Origin: Halomarina ordinaria
GTDB lineage: Archaea > Halobacteriota > Halobacteria > Halobacteriales > Haloarculaceae
Length of the DNA stretch: 64,000 nt
Reading direction: 5' to 3'
Assembly: GCF_030553305.1 (NCBI RefSeq)
Contig: NZ_JARRAH010000001.1
Span: forward strand, 682,001 to 746,000
Every line of letters starts with the position of its first letter. Within the stretch, counting starts at the first letter, position 1. A program made the translations under genes and the position numbers. Positions 45,221 to 46,543 of this stretch are shown here, piece by piece. Below the pieces are notes generated by a model that worked only from the letters and a program-made list of their open reading frames with translations, had not been told where the DNA came from and did not search any database.

Positions 45221-45646
45221 ATGTCGGGCGTCCCGTTCCACTACGTCGACCTGCAGGCGTTCGCCTACGCGACGGAGGACGAGCGGCGCGTCGAGGACGC
45301 CCTCCGGACGTTCCTCCCCGAGGAGTTCGCCGTCGAGCGCGTCGAGAACGTCGGCCACCACGGCGACCCCATCGTCGTCCTCTCGGCGCGCGTCGAGCGC
45401 GCCGACGACGTGCGACACGTCCTCTCGACGCTGGCGACCTCGGCCGACCTGGAGACGGTGCTCGACCAGCTCGACCGGCGCGTGACGGACAACTGCGAAC
45501 TGTACCTCTACCTCGACAAGCAGTCGGCCTTCCGCGGCGACGTCGAACTCGGCGCCGGCCTCTCCTTTCGCGCGAAGGTCGAGGCCTATCCCGCGAAGAA
45601 GGACGCCGCCGTGGCGAACGCCCGCGAGACGCTCGCCGACCTCTGA
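45221..45646 (+). CDS. COG1325-type RNA-binding protein (predicted exosome-associated)
   Basis: 141 residues. Strand/helix pattern FHYVDLQAFAYATEDERRVEDALRTF...DRRVTDNCELYLYLDKQSAF is that of the archaeal COG1325 family, predicted to bind RNA and to associate with the exosome by genomic context. The neighbours (Rpp30, Pop5, proteasome alpha, SBDS) match the archaeal RNA-processing/proteasome superoperon. It starts only 7 bp after the small acidic gene. Confidence 0.85.
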   Translation: MSGVPFHYVDLQAFAYATEDERRVEDALRTFLPEEFAVERVENVGHHGDPIVVLSARVERADDVRHVLSTLATSADLETVLDQLDRRVTDNCELYLYLDKQSAFRGDVELGAGLSFRAKVEAYPAKKDAAVANARETLADL

Positions 45647-45730
45647 GTCCCCACGGATAATCTCACCGTTGTCGTGAGCGTCCCGCCTCACTCTCCGGCT
45701 AACTAACTCCCCGGCCGTGGAGGGCGCAGT

Positions 45731-45796
45731 GACCGCCGCGCGGACCGGGACGGACGGTCCACGCGACGGCGGTCCCGGCGTGGCCCGGCACGCCGG
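45731..45796. ncRNA. two contiguous GC hairpins upstream of the Rpp30 gene (structured RNA candidate)
   Basis: Hairpin 1, 45731-45774: arms GACCGC plus CGCGCGGACCG, loop GGACGGA, arms CGGTCCACGCG plus GCGGTC, one mismatch and a 3-nt ACG bulge. Hairpin 2, 45775-45796: CCGGCGTG / CACGCCGG around GCCCGG, perfect. They abut with no spacer, in the 201-bp gap between the COG1325 gene and Rpp30, ending 51 bp before the Rpp30 ATG. Pairing is symmetric on both strands, so strand is not determined. No RNA family recognised. Confidence 0.5.
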
Positions 45797-45847
45797 ATTC
45801 TTCGGCGAGAACACAACGGTCAAACCGGCCACGGGTGAACGACGGGT

Positions 45848-46543
45848 ATGTACGAGGCCGTCCACGCCCGCCCCGACGGTGAGAGCACCGTCGCCCGCAT
45901 GGCGCTGACGGCGGCCGAGCAGGGGTACGAGGGCGTCGTCGTCCGCAACCACGGCGACGCCCCCGCACACTACGACCCCGAGTCGGCCGCCGAGGCGTCC
46001 GGCATCGACGTCGTCGACGCCGTCGAGGTGCGCGCCGAGGACCGCTCGCGGGCGTCGTCATTCGTCGAGCGCCACCGCGAGCGCCGGACGCTCGTCTGCG
46101 TCCACGGGGGGGCGCTCAACCGCCTCGCGGTCGAGGACGAGCGCGTCGACGTCCTCGCCCACCCGATGCGCGACGGCGACGTGAACCACGTCCTCGCGCG
46201 GGCGGCCGCCGACAACGGCGTCCGACTGGAGTTCGACTTCTCTCGGGTGCTCAGGGCCGACGGGGGCGAGCGCGTCCGGGCCATCGCCGGCCTCCGGAAA
46301 CTCCGCGAACTCGTCGAGAAGTACGACACGCCTTACGTCGTGAGCGCCGACGCGCGCAGTCACCTCCACCTCCGTGCCCCCCGCGAACTCGTCGCCGTCG
46401 GCGAACTCTGCGGGTTCGCCCCCGAGCAGGTGCGCGAGGGGGGACGCGAGTGGGGGCGACTGGCCGCCCGGAACCGCGAGCGACGCTCCGATTCGTTCAT
46501 TGAGCCGGGGGTCCGACGTGGCAGGTATGAAGAGACCGATTGA
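45848..46543 (+). CDS. rnp3: RNase P protein component 3 (Rpp30)
   Basis: 231 residues. TIM-barrel protein subunit of archaeal RNase P, needed with Pop5 for pre-tRNA 5' processing. Typical segments are GYEGVVVRNHGD, the HGGALNRLAVEDERVDVLAHP stretch and RSHLHLRAPRELVAVGELCG. It starts the RNase P/proteasome cluster and overlaps the following methyltransferase by 17 nt. A structured region lies 50-120 nt upstream. Confidence 0.93.
   Translation: MYEAVHARPDGESTVARMALTAAEQGYEGVVVRNHGDAPAHYDPESAAEASGIDVVDAVEVRAEDRSRASSFVERHRERRTLVCVHGGALNRLAVEDERVDVLAHPMRDGDVNHVLARAAADNGVRLEFDFSRVLRADGGERVRAIAGLRKLRELVEKYDTPYVVSADARSHLHLRAPRELVAVGELCGFAPEQVREGGREWGRLAARNRERRSDSFIEPGVRRGRYEETD

Follow-up and report, generated by a model that had tools for sequence, protein, structure and literature searches.

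The region upstream of rnp3, the gene for the RNase P p30 protein, contains two abutting hairpins that probably constitute a small, structured and independently transcribed non-coding RNA gene, restricted to one haloarchaeal genus. The element occupies the same position in every species of this genus that was compared, the distance between its first hairpin and an upstream TATA-like box is constant and promoter-like, its pairing is kept, and it is confined to the genus. The reading as an RNA gene is built on comparative sequence analysis.

The locus and its neighbouring genes

The window, that is, the whole 64-kb stretch of DNA that was analysed, carries on its + strand, in this order, a gene for a PF01877 RNA-binding protein (45221..45646, Pfam E 2.4e-29), rnp3 (45848..46543, +; Pfam PF01876, E 1.3e-38), a methyltransferase gene, Rpp14, and the gene for the proteasome alpha subunit. 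The gap separating the PF01877 gene from rnp3 is 201 nt in the window and 201-321 nt in 8/8 species of the window's genus, which were compared as clade A (L067, L068, L069, L070 and L074) and clade B (L071-L073). In a tree built from the PF01877 protein, the clade-B species form one group (92/95), and the genus as a whole is not resolved. Among the sampled genera of the family, relatives that have the PF01877 gene beside rnp3 mostly show overlapping or abutting genes (TGATG) and otherwise a spacing of at most about 60 nt, and in the remaining sampled genera another gene is the upstream neighbour of rnp3. The 201-321-nt gap is thus special to the window's genus. The genes for RNase P RNA and SRP RNA are both located elsewhere in the genome, which rules out these two identities for the element. 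As a side observation, rnp3 in G002 (C4:40114-40801) matches as two segments that overlap (residues 1-143 and 135-229), a pattern that a frameshift or a misassembly would give.

The fold of the two hairpins

The preliminary description reported a hairpin with a 17-bp stem directly abutting a perfect 8-bp hairpin, and a density of pairing well above that of the surroundings, both of which are borne out. Folded as the + strand, the 5' hairpin, P1 (45731..45774), has 17 pairs arranged as 8+3+6, a 7-nt loop, and bulges of 1 nt and 2 nt, both on the 3' side. The terminal hairpin, P2 (45775..45796, +), reads CCGGCGTG-GCCCGG-CACGCCGG, with 8 perfect pairs enclosing a loop of 6 nt, and the spacer between the two hairpins is 0 nt. 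The MFE of 45731-45796 is -49.1 kcal/mol, compared to -36.5 +/- 3.2 for dinucleotide shuffles (z -3.88, 0/200 shuffles as good), and 0/2907 segments of 66 nt, tiled every 22 nt across the whole 64 kb, match this fold. With 20 nt of flank added on each side, z drops to -2.1 for the whole stretch, and the signal is therefore confined to the two hairpins. Perfect 8-bp hairpins alone are not unusual, as there are 60 matches in the 64 kb (overlapping ones included), and P2 is consequently notable only by its conservation.

Conservation of structure within the genus

Folded individually, all five clade-A species form P1 directly followed by P2 (z -2.6 to -4.6). P2 is almost invariant among them, and its pattern occurs in five genomes of the genus at this locus only. 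The three clade-B species form P1, then a second hairpin or branch, and then a terminal hairpin (z about -1.6 to -3.2, the fold of L071 being weak at -1.55); the loop of this terminal hairpin, CUGGUCGCAC, is invariant, and its stem letters differ by species. Position, the TAACTA box discussed below and P1 are common to both clades, and because the terminal hairpins differ, the homology of the 3' half is uncertain between them. The distance from the start of P1 to P2 is 42-47 nt among species, with differences that are not multiples of three, indicating that the region is not coding. Several further features were also observed: CCTGTCATG lies a short distance 3' of the CUGGUCGCAC hairpin in clade B, this distance being longest in L071, the CUGGUCGCAC loop motif has one further occurrence at G002 C1:37401, and L070 and L074 carry, 3' of P2 and before the rnp3 promoter, several tens of nt of extra GC-rich, hairpin-forming sequence that L067-L069 lack.

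P1 keeps 63/64 pairs over the 8 species, compared to about 52 after strands are swapped between species (swapped 3' strands give a mean of 6.55 of 8 per pairing). The observed total is reached by 4/40,320 permutations, a result that lends support rather than proof, the strands having been aligned by hand and relatedness ignored. A covariance model, R1, was built from four clade-A sequences with L069 left out. Its four rows show in P1 the changes A-U to G-C and C-G to U-A on both sides of the stem and one C-G to U-G, and in P2 one C-G to U-G (in L068), and 29/500 column shuffles reach the observed compensatory score. The small number of compensatory changes reflects the existence of only 8 genomes. 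The G-U pairs in P2 of L068 and in P1 of L070 would become A-C on the opposite strand, and they favour the + strand as the RNA strand. The preliminary description had named compensatory changes in related genomes and conservation of position as checks on the element: with the reservation that the genomes are few and the test ignores relatedness, compensatory changes are found as for a small RNA gene, and the element lies in the same gap in 8/8 species of the genus.

R1 recovers the held-out L069 at 46.7 bits. Among 146 genomes of the family only the five clade-A species fall below E 0.01, and among 293 genomes drawn from the order the window's own genome alone matches at E 0.01. Weak matches in other genera (L095-L109, E 0.04-0.4) were rejected as chance, the loci that were read lying in long open frames and having no TAACTA upstream, so that the 146 family and 293 order genomes yield no convincing match outside the genus. 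An Rfam scan of the window returned tRNA-Leu alone, with no family above the gathering threshold at the element, and the literature that was searched contained no study of rnp3 promoters, nor any description of a comparable conserved, structured sRNA from haloarchaea.

Promoter-like sequences on either side of the hairpins

A TATA-like TAACTA box (45700..45705, +) lies 31 nt before P1. It is the sole TAACTA in each of the orthologous intergenic regions, and P1 begins 31 or 32 nt downstream of it in 8/8 species, with an intervening sequence that varies among them and is not conserved. The TAACTA box may match the sense sequence of 23S helix 69. Its placement is promoter-like, being where a TATA box would belong for an RNA starting with P1: 30 tRNA genes of the same genome have an AT content of 67-77% at -31 to -27 relative to the 5' end and carry AA at -36/-35, and in the RNase P RNA gene the TATA-like CTTAGG starts about 32 nt before the 5' end. 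The spacing is thus as expected for a small RNA gene's own promoter element in 8/8 species, with a box sequence and BRE that are non-canonical. A BRE-like GAA is found in only 4/8 species, at 12 nt versus 6-8 nt for RNase P RNA and SRP RNA, and TAACTA does not fit the haloarchaeal TATA consensus TTWT (PMC4983044). TAACTA was rejected as a common TATA box of this genome, since the 64 kb contain only five copies, and the rest serve no obvious RNA gene on the + strand. Elsewhere in this genome, outside the window, thirteen tRNA matches, some of them low-scoring, lie on one strand within 2.3 kb (C1:2547804-2550038), an array like those found in mobile elements or viruses.

The probable promoter of rnp3 is a second TATA-like sequence, AACGGTCAAA (45815..45824, +), which sits 3' of the hairpins and 5' of the rnp3 ATG. 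Its AACNGTCAA motif is conserved in 8/8 species and is also present in L031, which belongs to another genus. In the window, the first base of its GTCAAA is 29 nt before the ATG, a spacing as expected for a leaderless haloarchaeal gene.

Alternative explanations

The hairpins had been placed in the leader region of rnp3, where they might act as an attenuator or as an RNase P feedback site within the 5' leader of the mRNA. The element does adjoin rnp3 on the same strand, and read-through from TAACTA into rnp3 would put the hairpins in a 117-nt leader. However, the hairpins are separated from the ATG by the conserved, promoter-like AACNGTCAA, which stands at leaderless distance. The rnp3 mRNA therefore probably has no leader, with the hairpins upstream of it, in keeping with the 72% of protein-coding transcripts that are leaderless in H. 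volcanii (PMC4983044). Moreover, P1 lies anywhere from 117 to 209 nt before the start codon, and rnp3 is present in other genera without the element. A regulatory site in an rnp3 leader is, therefore, improbable, and the placement in a leader is not supported. Of the roles suggested in the preliminary description (attenuator, feedback site or small RNA), the small RNA is backed by position, spacing and compensatory changes, and no evidence ties the element to the function of RNase P.

The main rival to a small RNA gene is that the hairpins form the 3' UTR end of the PF01877 mRNA, where they would terminate the transcript or mark it for processing and so insulate the promoter of rnp3. This fits the position of the hairpins and the pyrimidine-rich trailer after P2, ATTCTTC (45797..45803, +), which is similar to the trailers that follow tRNA genes in this genome and may mark a 3' end. 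Haloferax volcanii offers a precedent: 503 of its termination sites have hairpins upstream of them, and a single hairpin that was put to the test ended 59% of transcripts (PMC7237163). The trailer contains no run of at least five T after P2, as a T-stretch intrinsic terminator would. What makes this explanation unlikely is that it accounts neither for TAACTA at a fixed 31-32 nt nor for why P1, beyond the last hairpin, is kept in every species. Conservation could also act on the DNA itself, given that P2 is a near-perfect inverted repeat of conserved sequence, as in an operator palindrome or a mobile repeat. Yet the 201-bp stretch has one copy in the window's genome, which excludes a repeat or mobile element, and the P2 pattern is found at one locus in five genomes; P1 changes in sequence while its pairing stays, and the G-U change in one arm of P2 keeps RNA pairing but breaks DNA symmetry, so that a DNA-level element is very improbable.

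A candidate small RNA gene

As a small RNA gene, the element would probably be transcribed from the TATA-like box at 45700, starting at or near 45731, the first base of P1. The transcript would run through P1 and then P2 and would probably end in the pyrimidine-rich stretch past P2, yielding an RNA of about 70-75 nt in the window's species and of >100 nt in the three species of clade B. Downstream of it, the rnp3 operon would start from its own promoter and with a leaderless mRNA. The most likely role, as we infer it, is that of a trans-acting or protein-binding sRNA, in which the terminal hairpin may also give 3' stability. A bolder proposal, which we consider quite improbable, is a new structured RNA class of one haloarchaeal genus that binds a protein, possibly a subunit of RNase P or the adjacent PF01877 RNA-binding protein, via the loop of its terminal hairpin and links the expression of the RNase P-proteasome operon to it.

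The element resembles the intergenic sRNAs of Haloferax volcanii, about 540 of which have been reported (PMC4983044), in being small and intergenic, with its own (here predicted) start site and no assigned function; it differs in being known from conserved structure and spacing in the genus alone, with no Rfam match. Like the haloarchaeal double-hairpin H/ACA guide sRNA (PMC2584109), it is intergenic and has two hairpins, but its long P1 stem has no guide pocket and there is no ACA box at the required spacing. An H/ACA guide RNA was accordingly rejected: the inspected folds do not show the internal pocket, K-turn or K-loop and ACA box of such a guide (the P1 bulges of the window's species are only 1-2 nt), and Rfam gives only tRNA. 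Like haloarchaeal hairpin terminators (PMC7237163), it places a stable hairpin and a following pyrimidine-rich stretch between two same-strand genes, but it has, in addition, a second conserved hairpin, the start of which keeps a constant distance to a TATA-like box.

Known intergenic transcripts of haloarchaea number in the hundreds, and those that are functional are hard to tell apart without structural conservation. The conserved position, promoter-like spacing and pairing make this locus a good candidate for a functional RNA, one that arose or was kept in a single genus, between two genes that lie close together in many relatives.
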